Positions 22,629 through 35,326 of a DNA stretch of 64,000 nt are shown piece by piece. Where the stretch lies: contig NZ_KI392031.1 in NCBI RefSeq assembly GCF_000158475.2, positions 993,786-1,057,785 on the forward strand. Reading direction: 5' to 3'. Each line of letters opens with the position of its first letter. Position 1 is the stretch's first letter. This DNA is from Oxalobacter paraformigenes (GTDB lineage: Bacteria; Pseudomonadota; Gammaproteobacteria; Burkholderiales; Burkholderiaceae_D). Both the position numbers and the translations under genes were made by a program. A model generated the notes under the pieces. The model searched no databases, had not been told where the DNA came from, and saw only the letters and a program-made list of their open reading frames with translations.

Positions 22629-23312
22629 TCAGACACGTCCGGAGAGCTGTTTTTTTCGGAACTTCCGGTGCTCTACCATCGTACCGATGATTTCCACGGC
22701 ATCCAGGTGGGAACGGATGCGAGGATAATCGTCGTTTAAGGCAATCAGCTCGAACAGCATAGTGTGAGACAAATCAAGTCCTTTCGGCCGGTATTTCCGG
22801 AGAATAACGTTCATCTTGTCCCCGTATTTCGCCACGACGAAATCGCCCGGTTCCGGAGCGATTGCCGGATCCACAATCACCCAGTCGCCTTTTTCGAATT
22901 CCGGCATCATTGCCAGACCTGTAATCTCGAGCGCAAAAGAATGGGCCGACAAGGGAGCATGCGTAAACAACCATTTCAGGGGCTTGTGGTAAATGGATAA
23001 ATTCCGGGACGCGCAATTGACCCTGGCTGCCTGTTCGGCAGTAATCAGGGGAATCTGGTTGACGTCTCCCCAAAATGTCGATACCGACTGAAAATTTCCC
23101 AGCGACATGGGGCCTGCGCCCGTTTCCAGCCATAAAGCCGAACACCCCACCATTTCCTGCGCTTTCAGCATGCCCTGTTTGGAAATGCCTCTGACCTGCC
23201 AGTTATGGATGGTTTGCGGCGATACATTAAACAGACGGGCCAGTTCCGACTGGCCGCTGACGCGTTTTAGCATCCTTGCCGCTTCGTATAAACGTTTCAT
23301 TTGTTCATGCAT
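22629..23312 (-). CDS. S24/LexA-like transcriptional repressor with degenerate catalytic site
   Basis: The 227-residue protein has an N-terminal HTH (GQSELARLFNVSPQTIHNW, residues about 20-38) and a C-terminal S24 fold (about 120-225), like phage CI repressors. In the usual G-D-S-M-x-P nucleophile motif it reads GLAMMP, with Ala134 in place of Ser. The Lys position appears to be Arg172 in NVILRKY. Self-cleavage is therefore not expected, so induction would need another route. The start is the ATG at 23312, with the ATG at 23300 as an alternative; neither has a good ribosome binding site. It may be a leftover or domesticated prophage regulator; no phage genes lie nearby. Confidence 0.82.
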   Translation of the reverse strand: MHEQMKRLYEAARMLKRVSGQSELARLFNVSPQTIHNWQVRGISKQGMLKAQEMVGCSALWLETGAGPMSLGNFQSVSTFWGDVNQIPLITAEQAARVNCASRNLSIYHKPLKWLFTHAPLSAHSFALEITGLAMMPEFEKGDWVIVDPAIAPEPGDFVVAKYGDKMNVILRKYRPKGLDLSHTMLFELIALNDDYPRIRSHLDAVEIIGTMVEHRKFRKKQLSGRV

Positions 23313-23386: not shown

Positions 23387-23773
23387 AAATAAAGAACAAA
23401 CCTTAAAAAAAGGGCAAATCTTTTGTTTTTCCTTGTCAAAAATCACATTCCGCCTTTCACAGAAACCGGCAAATTACTTTTCAGCCAGTATGGCAAAACT
23501 GAAAATACGCTTGAAAAACAATCCTTAAACTGCCTTCAGACATTTAATGACAATATAGCTGGCGTACAAACAAAACTTGTCATATTGTTACCAAACGCCC
23601 CTCTGTTTTTCTTACGACAAATCCGGATTTCCTGTTTTGACCTGTTACATTTTTAAACAAATTTCTTGTAAGAAATACAAAAAAAACAGACGGATTGTTC
23701 CGGCTTCCCCCAGCCGGACACGGTAAAAATCCGTTGGTTTCGCCATGCCGATCTGTTACAATGCCAGTCCATC
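23387..23773. other. AT-rich gene-less stretch upstream of tRNA-Leu
   Basis: Composition differs sharply from the GC-rich surroundings to about 23690. Only short frames are open (65-77 codons, using TTG starts and lacking ribosome binding sites), and none looks like a protein. No hairpin with a U-run was found. It may be remnant mobile DNA next to the tRNA or a transcribed non-coding leader. Confidence 0.4.
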
Positions 23774-23860
23774 GCCCGGGTGGTGAAATTGGTAGACACA
23801 AGAGACTTAAAATCTCTCGCCAGAAATGGCGTACCGGTTCGATTCCGGTCTCGGGCACCA
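23774..23860 (+). tRNA. tRNA-Leu (anticodon UAA)
   Basis: The 87 bases include an encoded CCA. Acceptor arms GCCCGGG and CTCGGGC pair with one G-U. The anticodon stem AGAGA/TCTCT encloses loop CTTAAAA, giving anticodon TAA. A long class II variable arm CGCCA-gaaa-TGGCG is present, and the T arm ACCGG-TTCGATT-CCGGT is perfect. The long variable arm and anticodon identify leucine. The 3' half of this gene is duplicated in inverted orientation at 27241-27347. Confidence 0.96.
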
Positions 23861-23920
23861 GCGATCTCCCGATTCATGCGGATATCCGGGCATTTCGCGG
23901 CAAGCGCCGGAGAACTTTAC
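23807..23920 (+). repeat. Left copy of an inverted repeat: tRNA-Leu 3' half plus 60 bp downstream
   Basis: The segment from the anticodon loop of tRNA-Leu through the CCA and about 60 bases beyond is repeated, inverted and slightly diverged, at 27241-27347. From the variable arm outward the two copies agree at roughly nine bases in ten by eye. They share the downstream block CGATTCATGCGGAT and TTTCGCGGCAAGCGCCGGA. Duplicated 3' tRNA halves usually mark integration sites, but these usually stand in direct orientation. Confidence 0.85.
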
Positions 23921-24433
23921 GGATTCCCCTTGCCGGGCCGTTTTCCGGGCATTTACCAGCCTGTTCCCCTCTTTTTCCATCTCTCCCGCAAGAACGCCGG
24001 GGGCTGCCATTCTATATGGGAACCGCCTCGCTTCCGCAAAACCCGGTTGTGGCACAGCAGAGAGCAATCTGCCATTTCGTGACGTTTAAAAAATTCCGGG
24101 CTTTTTCGCATCGAACGGATCCATTTCAACGGGTACAGGCGTCCTCTTTTCCGCAAACCGTTCCCGGACCCGTTTTCTCCTTGGCGATTCTTCCTTTTTT
24201 CCGTGTAAGCCGGAAATCCTGCCAGAAACAGAAAGGCTCTTTGTGGCCACCGTTTTCAGCCTTTCCTTTTTCCGGCCTCCGGAAAACACGCCTTCCAGGC
24301 CGGCCGACCGGCCCGGTGTGGAAAAGAAAGCCGCACAGGCTGCCGGGGCGTTCCCGCACGTTTTTCAAAGGAAGAAAGTGTCAAAAGATTGCCCGAACGC
24401 AATATTTTTTCCTTTTATCCTATATAATAAAAA
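23921..24433. other. Interval between the tRNA-Leu repeat and the esterase gene
   Basis: No gene is supported. Frames that run through the tRNA and this region translate into Arg/Pro/Phe-rich sequence typical of non-coding DNA here. From about 24375 it becomes AT-rich and leads into a TATAAT -10 before the esterase. Confidence 0.4.
24423..24428 (+). promoter_or_regulatory. Consensus -10 element of the esterase gene
   Basis: TATAAT lies at 24423-24428, with no convincing -35 upstream. Transcription would begin near 24435, at or after the first possible ATG (24434). This argues either for a leaderless message or for translation from the internal ATG at 24476. Confidence 0.45.
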
Positions 24434-25330
24434 ATGTCTTTCATTGCGGCCAAAATTCACTTGTTCCCGTTCCGAATGTCGTCTTCCTCTCCAGCCGGTT
24501 CTTCCGGAATTTCCATAACCGAAACCGTTTACCGGCAGTCGGAAAACATGCCGTTGAAAGCGCTGATTTACCGGCCGGCGGGAGAAGGGCCTTTTCCCGC
24601 CGTCGTCTGCGTTCATGGAGGAGCCTGGGTGGCGGGCGACCGTTTCGCCACACAAGGTTTTGCCGAACGGGTCGCGCAAACCGGTATTGTCGTGATGGCG
24701 ATCGATACCCGGCTGGCTCCGCAACATCCGTATCCGGCCGCCGTTGCCGACGTCAATTGCGCGACCCGCTGGCTGAAACACCATGCGGCAGAATACGGAG
24801 CGGATCCCCTAAGAACAGGGGGACTGGGCATTTCAAGCGGCGGGTATCTCGTTCTCCTCTCCGCCATGCGTTTCGACGATCCACGCTACTGTCAGGAGAA
24901 ACCCGCAAACCTTCCCTTAACTGCCTTAACCGATGCCAGAATGGCGTTTGTCGTCACCTGCTCGGGCGTTCTCGATCCGCTGGCCCGTTTTGCCCTGGCG
25001 GAAAAAAACGGCAATCTCGCCATCACGCTGTGCCATCGCGCTTTTTTCCGGAACCCGCAAACGATGGAAGAAGCAAACCCTCCGCTGATACTGTCCCGTC
25101 ACGAAAAGGCGGATCTCCCGCCGGCGCTCTTTTTTCAGGGCAGCGACGACCCGCGCCTGCCGCCCGATACCGCCGCAAAAACGGCAGCGGCCTGGCGAAA
25201 AGCCGGGGGAAGGGGAAAAGCCATCCTGTATCCTGAAACGGGGCACGCCGTCGGGACATGGCGAAGAAAAGAACTGGCGGACATGCTTTCCCGGCTTCAC
25301 GAGCTTGCATCGGGATCCTTATCATCGTAA
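24434..25330 (+). CDS. Alpha/beta-hydrolase (HSL/BD-FAE-like esterase or lipase)
   Basis: At up to 298 residues this is an alpha/beta hydrolase of the hormone-sensitive-lipase/acetylesterase type. The oxyanion-hole motif VCVHGGAWVAGD is followed by the nucleophile elbow GLGISSGGYL, the acid in FFQGSDDPRLPP and the base in ETGHAVGTW, so the triad is complete. There is no signal peptide, so it is probably cytoplasmic. The start is uncertain: 24434 lies right at the TATAAT element, while an in-frame ATG at 24476 gives 284 residues and suits the promoter better. Neither has a Shine-Dalgarno sequence. It is the first of three genes lying between the inverted tRNA-Leu repeats. Confidence 0.8.
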   Translation: MSFIAAKIHLFPFRMSSSSPAGSSGISITETVYRQSENMPLKALIYRPAGEGPFPAVVCVHGGAWVAGDRFATQGFAERVAQTGIVVMAIDTRLAPQHPYPAAVADVNCATRWLKHHAAEYGADPLRTGGLGISSGGYLVLLSAMRFDDPRYCQEKPANLPLTALTDARMAFVVTCSGVLDPLARFALAEKNGNLAITLCHRAFFRNPQTMEEANPPLILSRHEKADLPPALFFQGSDDPRLPPDTAAKTAAAWRKAGGRGKAILYPETGHAVGTWRRKELADMLSRLHELASGSLSS

Positions 25331-25512
25331 TCTGTCGCCTTGAATCGGAAACATGGCCATTTACCCATCCAGCGGGACCGTTATGCCTGTCATGGCCTCA
25401 TCCGCAATGCACCCCGTCAGCTTTTCAAAAAAACGGAAAAAACCACGAAACCGGACAGAACCCTGCTTTCCCGTCCCCCTTCAGGGATTGTCCGAAAACA
25501 TCGACCACATCA

Positions 25513-25965
25513 ATGCTCAATCTGAACCCGGCGGACTTCAAGCCGCTTGTATGGAAAAAGGAATATGAATCCGGCCATCCGCTTATGGACGAACAGCATC
25601 GCCGGCTTTTTGCAGAAGTCAACGAATTGCTGGCGGCCCTGCGGGAAAACAGGCCGAAAGCGGAAATCGGCGCCTTAATCGAAAAACTGTTCGCTGATAC
25701 CCGCGAACACTTCGGCACGGAAGAAGCCCTCCTGTCTGAAGCGGGTTACGATGAAACGCCTGTTCACGCGCTGATCCACAAACAGCTCCTGCAAAAGGGC
25801 GCACGGCTTGTCGCCCGGTTCGAGGAGAACCGGCTCGATTTCAGCGAGATTTTCCTTTATCTGGCCAAGGATATCGTCATGGATCATATCCTGAAAATCG
25901 ACATAAAATATTTCGGGCAGCTGGATTGGGCAACTGTCCCGGCAACCTGGCAAACCCGTCATTAG
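25513..25965 (+). CDS. Bacteriohemerythrin
   Basis: The 150-residue protein is a single four-helix hemerythrin domain that binds O2 at a di-iron centre. All seven expected ligands are present: His29 (DEQH), His66 and Glu70 (H-F-G-T-E), His85 and His89 (H-x3-H), and His125 and Asp130 (H-x4-D). No signalling domain is fused, so it is a free cytoplasmic O2 carrier or sensor. The family is common in microaerophilic and anaerobic proteobacteria. The ATG at 25513 gives the standard N-terminus (P-L-V-W-x-x-x-Y-x-x-G-H). It lies 182 bases after the esterase gene. Confidence 0.93.
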   Translation: MLNLNPADFKPLVWKKEYESGHPLMDEQHRRLFAEVNELLAALRENRPKAEIGALIEKLFADTREHFGTEEALLSEAGYDETPVHALIHKQLLQKGARLVARFEENRLDFSEIFLYLAKDIVMDHILKIDIKYFGQLDWATVPATWQTRH

Positions 25966-26268
25966 CCCGTTTTTCCCTCCGTGCTGGCGTCACCTGAGCT
26001 GCCGAAGCGGCCATCTCCCCGAAACGGACGAATTCCGGCCCGAAAAAAGGGGTTTTCCGGTTTTCGTGTCCCGTTCTGTTCCATCAGGACAACGATATGC
26101 CCCCAGCCTGCGGCAAGTTCGCTATGATGAGGCCATGCCGTTTCCGTTTTCATGGCGAACCCGTTGTTTATGGAAAAGCCGGCCGGTTCCTGCCAGAAGA
26201 TTCCGGGCCGATTGGCCGCTACAGAAAACGGAAACGCCTGTTCCCCACCCTTTCCCACAGGAGGAAAC
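25966..26268. other. Short gene-less interval
   Basis: Nothing recognisable lies here apart from the good CAGGAGGAAAC ribosome binding site at its right end, which serves the next gene. Confidence 0.4.
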
Positions 26269-27123
26269 ATGATGCTCCCGGCCGAAACCGGAAAACTGAA
26301 CATAACGGTTCTTGTCGACGATACCGTCGCATCCGAAGAACTGGCTGCCGAACACGGCGTATCTATCCTTGTCGAACTTCCAAACGGCCGCCGCTGGCTT
26401 GTCGATACGGGCACAACCGACATATTCATGGAAAACGCCCGCAGGATGGGCATCAGTCTGGACGATCTGGCCGGAATCGCCATTACCCACGGGCACGACG
26501 ACCATACGGGCGGCCTGACTTTCTACTCCCGGCTCAAGGGAAAACCGCCGGTTTACGGCCATCCCTATATCTGGCACAAATCCTACCAGATCAAACCGGG
26601 CCAGCCCGTGCGCGTCACCGGCATGCCCTATCTGGCGAGAAAGGACGCCGCCCCGTCGTTTCAGGCCGTCAACCATGTCACCCGGCTTGACGACGATCTG
26701 TACTTCTTTACCGACATTCCCCGCGCGCCCGGCAGTTTCGCCCCGATTGCCGGAAATTTCTTCAACGAAGACGGGACCGGGCCGGTTCCCCTGATCGACG
26801 ACGCGTCCATCGTCATCAAAACCCCGAAGGGTCTGGTCGTCATTATCGGATGCGGCCATGCCGGCTATACCAACATCCTAAACGCCATCCATGCGGCGTT
26901 TCCGGGAGAAAAACTGCTGGCGGTCATCGGCGGCCTGCATCTGATGAATGCCGGAGAAAACGTGCTAGCTGAAGCCGTCGATTGCACCCGCCGCATCAAG
27001 GCCGACGATTTCGTTTTTTACTGCGGACACTGTACGGGCGAGAACACGCTCCGGTATTTCAGCCAGGCTTTCGGTGAAAAGGCCGTCAGGCCAATGGGAG
27101 CGGGAAGGGTGCTTCACTTCTGA
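26269..27123 (+). CDS. Metallo-beta-lactamase-fold hydrolase (dihydropterin synthase-like/arylsulfatase-type MBL)
   Basis: The 284-residue MBL-fold protein has the metal motif T-H-G-H-D-D-H-T-G-G at about residues 73-82 (His74, His76, Asp78, His79). Later metal ligands probably lie in IIGCGHAGYTN and GGLHLMN. It resembles the family annotated as 7,8-dihydropterin-6-methyl-4-(beta-D-ribofuranosyl)-aminobenzene-5'-phosphate synthase, whose name comes from an archaeal member; in bacteria the substrate is generally unknown. Two ATGs occur (26269 and 26272) after a strong AGGAGG site. It is followed by the inverted partial tRNA-Leu copy. Confidence 0.85.
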   Translation: MMLPAETGKLNITVLVDDTVASEELAAEHGVSILVELPNGRRWLVDTGTTDIFMENARRMGISLDDLAGIAITHGHDDHTGGLTFYSRLKGKPPVYGHPYIWHKSYQIKPGQPVRVTGMPYLARKDAAPSFQAVNHVTRLDDDLYFFTDIPRAPGSFAPIAGNFFNEDGTGPVPLIDDASIVIKTPKGLVVIIGCGHAGYTNILNAIHAAFPGEKLLAVIGGLHLMNAGENVLAEAVDCTRRIKADDFVFYCGHCTGENTLRYFSQAFGEKAVRPMGAGRVLHF

Positions 27124-27743
27124 GAGGCGCCGTTCACTTCCGGAATGGGGGTGCGGATACCTGACACAGGACGCCAAAAGAAGCGTCCTGTTTCGGCATG
27201 GCTTGATGCCGTTTTTGCAGGTAAATGCCATAAAGTCCGAGAAAGTTTTCCGGCGCTTGCCGCGAAATACCCGGGCATCCGCATGAATCGGAAGATCGCT
27301 GGCAAGACCGGCATCGAACCGGTACGCCACTCTGACGGGAGATTTCAGGCCGCTTGCGCCAAAGCGTGCCCTTTTGCGCGGCGACCCGGGAAGCGCGGCT
27401 CGCTTTACGTCCCTTATACGGCCGCCTGTCCTTTCCGCATTCCGCACGATCCTTTTGAAAGGAAAGGACTGTCTCACCGCTCCCGGTTTGGACAGCCGGC
27501 GAAAATATGCCCGTTTTCTGTCGCCAAACAACATCCGGCAGCGCTTTCGCTCTGGACAGCCTGTTCCCCGAGGGGGTAACCTATCGGCATAAAGGGCCGG
27601 TTCTGCCGTTGCTTTTCCTGCCTGAACCGTCAGGGCCGAACGAATTGCCCGGCTGCCGTCCCCAGTCGTTTCCCGTATTGCCCGCCGGATGGAAAACAGC
27701 TGTTTTCCATCCTGTCCCAACCACTCTATGGAAGGATCAGTCT
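27124..27743. other. Interval carrying the tRNA-Leu remnant, before the alcohol dehydrogenase
   Basis: Apart from the inverted tRNA-derived repeat (27241-27347), no gene is visible in these 620 bp. Open frames on both strands read through the remnant and give Arg/Pro-rich sequence. A GGAAGGATC ribosome binding site for the next gene lies at the right end. Confidence 0.4.
27241..27347 (-). repeat. Inverted, decayed copy of the tRNA-Leu 3' half plus downstream flank (tRNA pseudogene fragment)
   Basis: Read on the minus strand, this matches 23807-23920: the end of an anticodon stem-loop, a T arm ACCGG-TTCGATG-CCGGT, then an acceptor strand missing three bases, then the same flank CGATTCATGCGGAT and TTTCGCGGCAAGCGCCGGA. 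The 5' half of a tRNA is absent, and the acceptor deletion rules out function. The bases at the anticodon position differ from those of tRNA-Leu(UAA), so the copy may come from a related tRNA or be simply mutated. Confidence 0.85.
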
Positions 27744-28817
27744 ATGCGTACCATGAAAGCGGCCGTTTTCGTCAAACCCGGCAAAATCGTTCTCGATGAA
27801 AAACCCGTCCCCAAAGTCGGCCCCGGCGACGCACTGGTCAAGATCACGACGACTACCATCTGCGGAACCGACGTCCATATCCTGAAAGGGGAATATCCTG
27901 TCAAACCCGGGCTGATCATCGGCCACGAACCCGTCGGGGTTATCGAGGAACTCGGCGTGGGCGTCACCGGCTACCGTGTCGGCCAGCGCGTGGTCGTCGG
28001 AGCCATCACCCCCTGCGGCCAGTGTTATGCCTGTCTGGACAACCATTCTTCCCAGTGCGGGGGACATGGCGCCTACGGCTGGAAAGCGCTCGGCGGCTGG
28101 AAATTCGGCAACACCATCGACGGCTGCCAGGCCGAATACGTACTGGTGCCGGACGCCATGGCCAATCTGGAACCCATTCCGGACGACCTGACCGATGAAC
28201 AGGTCCTGATGTGTCCTGACATCATGAGCACCGGTTTTTCGGGCGCCGAAAGCGGAAGAGTCAAAATCGGCGATACCGTCGTCATTTTCGCGCAGGGACC
28301 GATCGGGCTCTGCGCCACTGCCGGCGCGAAGCTCCGGGGCGCAACGCGGATTATCACGGTGGACGGGATTCCCGAACGGCTGGCCATTTCGAAACGGATG
28401 GGCGCGGACATCACCATCAATTTCCGCGAAAAAGACCCGATCGACGAAATCATGAAAATCACCGACGGAAAAGGAGTGGATGTCGCCATCGAGGCGCTGG
28501 GCACGCAGCAGACGTTCGAGAGCTGCCTGCGCGTTCTGAAACCGGGCGGCGTGCTGTCCAGTCTGGGCGTCTATTCCGGCAAGCTGACCTTGCCGGGCGA
28601 CGCTTTCGCCGCAGGACTGGCTGACCAGACGATTGTCACCACGCTTTGCCCCGGCGGCAAGGAACGCATGCGCCGGTTGCTGAACGTCGTCGAAAGCGGG
28701 CGCGTCGATCTGAAACAGCTGGTCACGCACCGTTTTCCGCTCGACAGAATCGAGGAAGCCTACGATCTCTTCGCGAACGCACGCGACGGCGTGCTGAAAA
28801 TCGCCATCACTCCCTGA
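27744..28817 (+). CDS. Zinc-dependent NAD(P) alcohol dehydrogenase (secondary-alcohol type)
   Basis: The 357-residue MDR-family enzyme should interconvert alcohols and aldehydes or ketones. Catalytic zinc ligands are Cys40 (ICGTDVH), His61-Glu62 (GHE) and Asp in MCPDIMSTGF, the arrangement of clostridial/thermoanaerobic secondary ADHs. GGWKFGNTIDG is also shared with that group. It additionally has four clustered cysteines (PCGQCYAC then SSQC) that look like a structural zinc lobe, which the clostridial enzymes lack. The Rossmann motif is IFAQGPIGLCAT. The start follows a GGAAGGATC site. A strong hairpin after the stop suggests a single-gene unit. Confidence 0.9.
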   Translation: MRTMKAAVFVKPGKIVLDEKPVPKVGPGDALVKITTTTICGTDVHILKGEYPVKPGLIIGHEPVGVIEELGVGVTGYRVGQRVVVGAITPCGQCYACLDNHSSQCGGHGAYGWKALGGWKFGNTIDGCQAEYVLVPDAMANLEPIPDDLTDEQVLMCPDIMSTGFSGAESGRVKIGDTVVIFAQGPIGLCATAGAKLRGATRIITVDGIPERLAISKRMGADITINFREKDPIDEIMKITDGKGVDVAIEALGTQQTFESCLRVLKPGGVLSSLGVYSGKLTLPGDAFAAGLADQTIVTTLCPGGKERMRRLLNVVESGRVDLKQLVTHRFPLDRIEEAYDLFANARDGVLKIAITP

Positions 28818-33943: not shown

Positions 33944-35326
33944 ATGCCTGATTCACCCGAACTTCTTTTGCCTGCCGGTTCCCTCGAAAAAATGCGGGCC
34001 GCCTACGATTTCGGCGCCGATGCCGTGTATGCGGGGCAGCCTCGTTACAGCCTGCGTGCCAGAAACAACGCGTTTTCCACGCTTGACGCCCTGAAAGAGG
34101 GTATCGACGAAGCGCACCGGCGCGGCAAAAAGTTCTACGTCGCCAGCAACATCTACGCCCACAACGCCAAGCTGAAAACCTATCTGGCCGACATGGCCCC
34201 CGTTATCGACATGAAACCGGACGCGCTGATTATGGCCGATCCCGGCCTGATCATGCTGGTTCGCGACCGCTGGCCCGAGGTTCCCGTCCATCTGTCGGTA
34301 CAGGCCAACGCCATCAACTGGGCTGACGTCAAATTCTGGCAGCGGATGGGGCTCATGCGCGTCATCCTTTCGCGCGAACTGTCGCTGGACGAAATCGCGG
34401 AAATCCGCCAGCGCTGTCCGGACATGGAACTGGAAGTCTTCGTGCACGGGGCGCTTTGCGTCGCCTATTCGGGCCGGTGCCTGCTGTCGGGTTACTTCAA
34501 CCACCGCGACTCCAATCAGGGCACCTGCACCAATTCCTGCCGCTGGAACTACAAAATCGCCAATGCCGCGGAAGACGCCACCGGCGACATTCTCCCGCTC
34601 GACATGGCGCAAATCATGGCAGCCCCAGAAATACCGCCTTCCGCACTGGGCGAGATGCCGCGGCATCCGGCCGCCGAGAGAGTCTATCTGATCGAGGAGG
34701 GCAAGCGGCCGGGCCAGCTCTTGCCGATTATGGAAGACGAACACGGCACCTACATCATGAATTCGAAAGATTTGCGCGCGATCGAGCACATCGGACGGCT
34801 GGTCGAAATCGGCGTCGATTCTCTCAAAATCGAGGGGCGTACCAAATCCGTTTATTATGTCGTCCGTACCGCACAGGCTTACCGTCAGGCCATCGACGAC
34901 GCCGTGGCCGGCCGGCCGTTCGACACCCGTCTTTTAGGGGCGCTTCAGGGGCTTGCCAACCGGGGCTATACCGACGGTTTCTACAAACGCCACCACACGC
35001 AGGAATACCAGAATTACCTTTCCGGCGCTTCCGAACTGCACAACAGCCATTACGTCGGCGACGTGGTTTCCGCGGAAAACGGCTGGGCAACCGTTCTCGT
35101 CAAAAACCGTTTTTCGGTCGGCGATACACTGGAAATTTTCCATCCGGCAGGCAACACGGTCGTTTCGCTGGAAAAAATGACAAACGAGGAAGGGGAAACC
35201 GTGACCGTCGCCCCGGGAAGCGGGCATCGCGTCCGTATTCCGCTCAAAGCGCGTTACAATGGCGCCTTCATCGCCCGCCGCCTGTCCGGTGGCACATCGG
35301 GAGAAAACGGAAAAGATTCACCATGA
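33944..35326 (+). CDS. trhP: U32-family tRNA hydroxylation protein TrhP (YegQ-like)
   Basis: The 460-residue U32 protein matches TrhP/YegQ in length. TrhP-type enzymes help form 5-hydroxyuridine at the wobble position of tRNAs. It starts PELLLPAGSLEKMRAAYDFG and contains the U32 signature E-V-F-V-H-G-A-L-C-V-A-Y-S-G-R-C-L-L-S. Further cysteines lie in QGTCTNSCRW, and together they would hold an Fe-S cluster. The later segment LKIEGRTKSVYYVVRTAQAY is also typical. The start at 33944 gives the natural N-terminus (MPDSPELLLPAGS); longer in-frame versions to 33725 are not supported. Its stop overlaps dnaQ as ATGA. Confidence 0.9.
   Translation: MPDSPELLLPAGSLEKMRAAYDFGADAVYAGQPRYSLRARNNAFSTLDALKEGIDEAHRRGKKFYVASNIYAHNAKLKTYLADMAPVIDMKPDALIMADPGLIMLVRDRWPEVPVHLSVQANAINWADVKFWQRMGLMRVILSRELSLDEIAEIRQRCPDMELEVFVHGALCVAYSGRCLLSGYFNHRDSNQGTCTNSCRWNYKIANAAEDATGDILPLDMAQIMAAPEIPPSALGEMPRHPAAERVYLIEEGKRPGQLLPIMEDEHGTYIMNSKDLRAIEHIGRLVEIGVDSLKIEGRTKSVYYVVRTAQAYRQAIDDAVAGRPFDTRLLGALQGLANRGYTDGFYKRHHTQEYQNYLSGASELHNSHYVGDVVSAENGWATVLVKNRFSVGDTLEIFHPAGNTVVSLEKMTNEEGETVTVAPGSGHRVRIPLKARYNGAFIARRLSGGTSGENGKDSP

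Follow-up and report, generated by a model that had tools for sequence, protein, structure and literature searches.

An inverted, decayed partial copy of tRNA-Leu(UAA) and the reversal in place of the intact gene in Oxalobacter paraformigenes

Within the 64,000-nucleotide stretch of Oxalobacter paraformigenes DNA analyzed here (the window), the tRNA-Leu(UAA) gene stands reversed, promoter included, among neighbors that have kept their ancestral order, and part of the gene occurs a second time, decayed and in opposite orientation, on the far side of a three-gene block. This fragment is probably a non-functional scar, left when DNA at a tRNA site prone to rearrangement was locally duplicated and inverted. 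The reversal of the tRNA gene, which appears to have recurred in the genus, is more notable than the scar.

The inverted repeat and the tRNA pseudogene

The intact tRNA-Leu(UAA) gene (23774..23860, + strand; ARAGORN, and Rfam RF00005 with 56.4 bits) encodes its CCA; in most congeners the gene at this place points the other way. Its positions 26–87, together with 58 bp of downstream DNA, form the source arm of an inverted duplication (23799..23918, + strand), and recur as the reverse complement at 27242–27356 (− strand), 3.4 kb from the intact gene. The repeat is real: its gapped alignment scores 144, none of 200 shuffles exceeds 26, and in a whole-genome search the inverted copy is recovered with an E value of 2e-30. 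Over the whole 120 nt the copies are 84% identical, without a long identical run. The repeat search of the window delimited one pair of arms at 23858–23918/27242–27302 (92% over 61 nt) and another, in the TΨC part, at 23827–23851/27305–27329 (96% over 25 nt). The 58-bp flank alone (copy at 27242..27299, − strand; repeat search and alignment) is 91.4% identical between the copies, differing at 5 of 58 positions, and in the gapped alignment the 28 nt of tRNA positions 26–53 differ by seven mismatches and one gap. Both ends of the repeat are sharp; no similarity continues past either, and the promoter, the first 25 nt of the tRNA and the DNA following the flank are all absent beside the fragment. 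A preliminary description of the locus, made from the letters of the sequence, had noticed this repeat between 23807 and 27347, with a flank of about 60 bp and about nine in ten bases shared; the repeat is confirmed, with ends that lie slightly wider (23799 and 27356).

The tRNA-derived part of the far copy (27300..27356, − strand) aligns with positions 26–87 of the tRNA-Leu with one single-nucleotide and one 4-nt deletion. It lacks the first 25 nt, so that it starts in the anticodon stem at position 26 rather than lacking exactly the 5′ half as had been thought, and four acceptor bases, not three, are deleted. Neither ARAGORN nor Rfam calls a tRNA here. Because of the loss of the four acceptor bases and the failure of both programs to call it, the fragment, still tRNA-like and unable to form a tRNA, is classed as a dead tRNA pseudogene. 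Derivation from another tRNA-Leu was rejected, two other leucine tRNAs having scored 17 and 11 in comparison with 34 for tRNA-Leu(UAA). The window tRNA reads GGTCTCGGGC in its acceptor, the nine relatives compared show GGTCC or GGTTC there, and the fragment reads GGTCTTG. This C-to-T change (GGTCT) is found, among the tRNAs of the 10 genomes compared, only in that of the window genome, and it is present in the fragment. Since the change is common to the fragment and the window tRNA alone, the copying was probably later than the change and took place within the window lineage, one shared T being weak evidence on timing.

The flank is unique to this pair. There is no third copy in the genome (2,488,386 bases), and none in 12 congeners, where matches to a query of the tRNA plus flank stop at the tRNA. 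Among a sample of 145 family genomes a single 22-nt match of chance size was obtained, a phage collection gave nothing (the matches listed are tRNA genes), and viral contigs and genome contigs gave 0 matches, in collections that, by their own account, may omit records of the genome of the window and of those very near it. The check proposed at the outset, whether the flank is a dispersed repeat, thus returned two copies in the genome and none in the 12 congeners, and that candidate was rejected. A structured RNA was rejected as well (z of about 0 for the fold of both copies against shuffles, and no Rfam match), as was a terminator, terminator-like sites being no more frequent than in shuffles. 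With no fold above shuffles, no terminator excess and no recombinase, no function is indicated for fragment or flank, and the case is best taken as that of a scar. For the DNA adjoining the fragment (27330–27726), a search of six congeners gave no convincing source.

Gene order and tRNA orientation in the genus

The repeat encloses three genes, which had been named correctly from the beginning: an alpha/beta hydrolase or esterase (24434..25330, + strand; Pfam BD-FAE/Abhydrolase_3), which is the ancestral neighbor of the tRNA; a bacteriohemerythrin (25543..25965, + strand; TIGR02481, NF033749), ancestral here and of a short single-domain form; and an MBL-fold hydrolase (26269..27123, + strand; PF00753). 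The ancestral left neighbor is a CI/LexA-like repressor with an S24 peptidase (22629..23312, − strand; PF00717, phrog_4), and the ancestral right neighbor is a zinc-dependent alcohol dehydrogenase (27741..28817, + strand), 90% identical in Oxalobacter formigenes HC-1 (NZ_CP018787.1; G001 hereafter). Just upstream of the dehydrogenase gene, at 27687–27712, there is a perfect 26-nt palindrome, GGATGGAAAACAGCTGTTTTCCATCC, which looks operator-like; a 24-nt sequence related to it occurs at around 35136–35159. In G001 (L040 8681-11700), two tandem, longer hemerythrin-domain genes replace the single short bacteriohemerythrin of the window, with the domain at the gene end and, as read by eye, apparent sensor and GGDEF-type parts upstream.

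Two relatives, G001 and G008, have the esterase, hemerythrin and dehydrogenase genes contiguous, in the order and orientation of the window, with a single tRNA copy and no insertion; in G011 and G012 the esterase and dehydrogenase genes are contiguous, with one divergent tRNA each. The esterase gene is found at the equivalent place in six genomes (G001, G005, G006, G008, G011, and G012), and in all six the tRNA is divergent from it. G002 and G007 have no esterase gene here, and their tRNA diverges from whichever gene follows in the row. Furthermore, beyond a prophage in G001, the S24, SDR, NlpE, and GATase region continues in the window's orientation relative to the esterase. Because these genes keep that orientation, only the tRNA and its promoter are reversed relative to both neighbors, and the enclosed block retains the ancestral orientation. 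The promoter region (23747..23773, + strand, with TGTTACAAT as the −10 region) is conserved with the tRNA in G001, as judged by sequence comparison, positions 23747–23860 of the window being 93% identical to that genome. Three changes thus belong to the window lineage: promoter and tRNA were inverted in place, the MBL gene was added, and the fragment appeared. The MBL gene occupies another chromosomal place in G001, G005, and G006, and was therefore moved or gained in the window.

This gene order bears directly on mobility, which the preliminary description had suggested for the block. Considering the order and orientation of the genes in G001 and G008 and the left flank of G001, the block has been neither inserted nor inverted, and its mobility is not supported. 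The arms do not resemble the attL and attR of an integrated element: they are inverted instead of direct, and the repeat runs 58 bp beyond the 3′ end of the tRNA. Compared with G001 and G008, only the MBL gene is new. No PF00589 integrase gene occurs in the bounded block or anywhere within 96 kb (the nearest are at C2:921087 and C2:1404718 of the window's genome, G000), no phage structural genes were found near the locus, and the intergenic open reading frames hold no phage remnants of note.

Nevertheless, elements do integrate at tRNA-Leu(UAA) in the genus. In G001, a prophage of about 36 kb is integrated in this gene (G001:C1:1410829-1446680), with its integrase gene directly after the tRNA (G001:C1:1411456-1411935). 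A copy of the att sequence, CCGGTCCCGGGCACCA, adjoins the S24 region at about 1446666; the att core is about 16 nt long and ends at CCA. The S24 repressor gene is conserved in that genome, outside the prophage. A 4.2-kb portion of the same prophage recurs with 88% identity at 2075387–2079591. G007 likewise has an integrase gene directly downstream of the tRNA, and integrase-like starts could be read by eye at this position in G002 and G008.

A reversed tRNA-Leu(UAA) is also present in G004 (L047 5724-5810), where it lies with its promoter between an FMN reductase-like gene, so named by eye, and a gene of the 33725 family. The order GATase, FMN reductase-like gene, tRNA, 33725-family gene is that of G005 and G006, minus the esterase. 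In a tree of the 33725 protein, G004 groups with G005 and G006 (100/99) and G000 lies near G001; well-supported branches require two changes of tRNA orientation, which the bootstrap trees also show, a count that rests on one gene tree with nine ingroup rows. The flip in G004, a second species represented by a draft assembly in which misassembly is possible, is thus apparently separate from that in the window lineage. The orientation of tRNA-Leu(UAG) relative to shared neighbors also differs, being one way in G001 and G004 and the other way in G000, G002, G007, and G012 (loci L169 9829-9915 and L168 10469-10554). A bacterial tRNA gene that serves as an integration site can accordingly be reversed in place together with its promoter, apparently twice in one genus, and an inverted tRNA fragment is not necessarily the mark of a mobile element.

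Origin of the fragment

In the scar reading, the site would be one where insertion and loss of elements leave room for rearrangement. In the window lineage, tRNA-Leu(UAA) and its promoter would have turned round at their place between the genes for the S24 repressor and the esterase, and a reversed copy of about 115 bp, comprising the 3′ part of the tRNA and the 58-bp flank, would have arisen at a distance of 3.4 kb. This copying most likely went through the repair of a break or a switch of template, one of its ends falling within the anticodon stem, and the copied segment would then have decayed to a pseudogene. The duplication and the flip would both date from a single episode. Several features speak against the scar reading. 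The fragment sits beyond the esterase gene, away from the old position of the tRNA, and the divergence is uneven, with 7 of 28 positions differing in the anticodon and variable part versus 5 of 58 in the flank, a pattern poorly explained by one neutral copy. In addition, single rearrangements worked through by hand, namely an inversion with staggered breaks and a simple tandem inversion duplication, do not give the observed order in one step; for the former, the esterase and dehydrogenase genes keep their orientation.

A remnant of a tRNA-targeting integrative element is an unlikely but possible source. The flank would be element DNA adjoining an integrase gene since lost, and the two arms would be an attL and a further att site from a tandem or related element, turned against each other by a later inversion. 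In its favor, integration at this tRNA is proven for the genus, with an integrase gene and an attR about 36 kb away in G001 and an integrase gene in G007, and the anticodon arm matches imperfectly, which is compatible with a phage att site. The CI-like repressor gene adjoining the tRNA points the same way, but its counterpart in G001 lies outside the prophage, whose core of about 16 nt ends at CCA. Moreover, neither an integrase nor a phage structural gene is near, no match to the flank came from phages, viral contigs or the elements of congeners, and the enclosed genes are mostly ancestral chromosomal ones. Of the old integration followed by inversion proposed in the preliminary description, the integration of the block is contradicted by the gene order of G001 and G008, each of which has a single tRNA copy, by the lack of an integrase in 96 kb and by a repeat reaching 58 bp past the tRNA end as against a core of about 16 nt; the inversion stands, as one of the tRNA with its promoter and not of the block. 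With the integration of the block contradicted and the flank unique to the pair, a distinct duplication route, offered there as the alternative, is the better half of that interpretation.

The relation between the two copies may also be turned around, the fragment being the decayed original tRNA in its ancestral orientation, the intact left gene a newer inverted copy, and the esterase and hemerythrin genes having been shifted between them by a further rearrangement. We regard this as quite unlikely. It would account for the orientations, ancestral for the fragment and derived for the intact gene relative to the esterase and dehydrogenase genes, but the fragment lies beyond the esterase, hemerythrin and MBL genes, the tRNA of the relatives precedes the esterase gene, and neither a promoter nor the first 25 nt is found beside the fragment.

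More speculatively, the flips in the genus might be the work of a specific process, tied to integration and loss of elements, by which integration-site tRNA-Leu genes are repeatedly turned in place with their promoters, the fragment being a trapped intermediate; we hold this to be rather improbable. If the flips are so tied, methods that find islands by direct tRNA repeats would miss the remnants. That the pair acts as a switch, recombination between the inverted repeats flipping the block and altering the expression of its genes, is hardly credible although the repeats do flank a gene block, given that the copies share just 84% of 120 nt and nowhere agree over a long stretch, that no recombinase gene is close by, that the block has its ancestral orientation and that the flank folds no better than shuffles (z of about 0).

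Comparison with known systems

The locus shares with DNA duplication associated with inversion (PMC4671568; for Thermus, PMC8963470) a short breakpoint segment present twice, in opposite orientation, at both ends of a few genes. In that process, the enclosed segment is inverted relative to relatives, whereas here the block is ancestral, the esterase and hemerythrin genes having kept their orientation relative to the S24 and dehydrogenase genes, and it is the tRNA itself that is reversed.

In Haloquadratum walsbyi, an imperfect copy of tRNA-Thr1 lies 6.7 kb away without an integrase, one of the partial tRNA duplications that tRNA-targeting integrases leave behind (PMC3119063). The two cases have in common a truncated and decayed 3′ copy a few kilobases away, with no integrase nearby; the present copy differs in being inverted, in continuing for 58 bp downstream of the tRNA, and in enclosing mostly ancestral genes. 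The prophage of O. formigenes HC-1, a further case for comparison, uses the same tRNA gene at the same chromosomal place; its att repeat is direct and about 16 nt long, its integrase gene lies beside the tRNA, and the prophage occupies the side of the tRNA away from the esterase gene.
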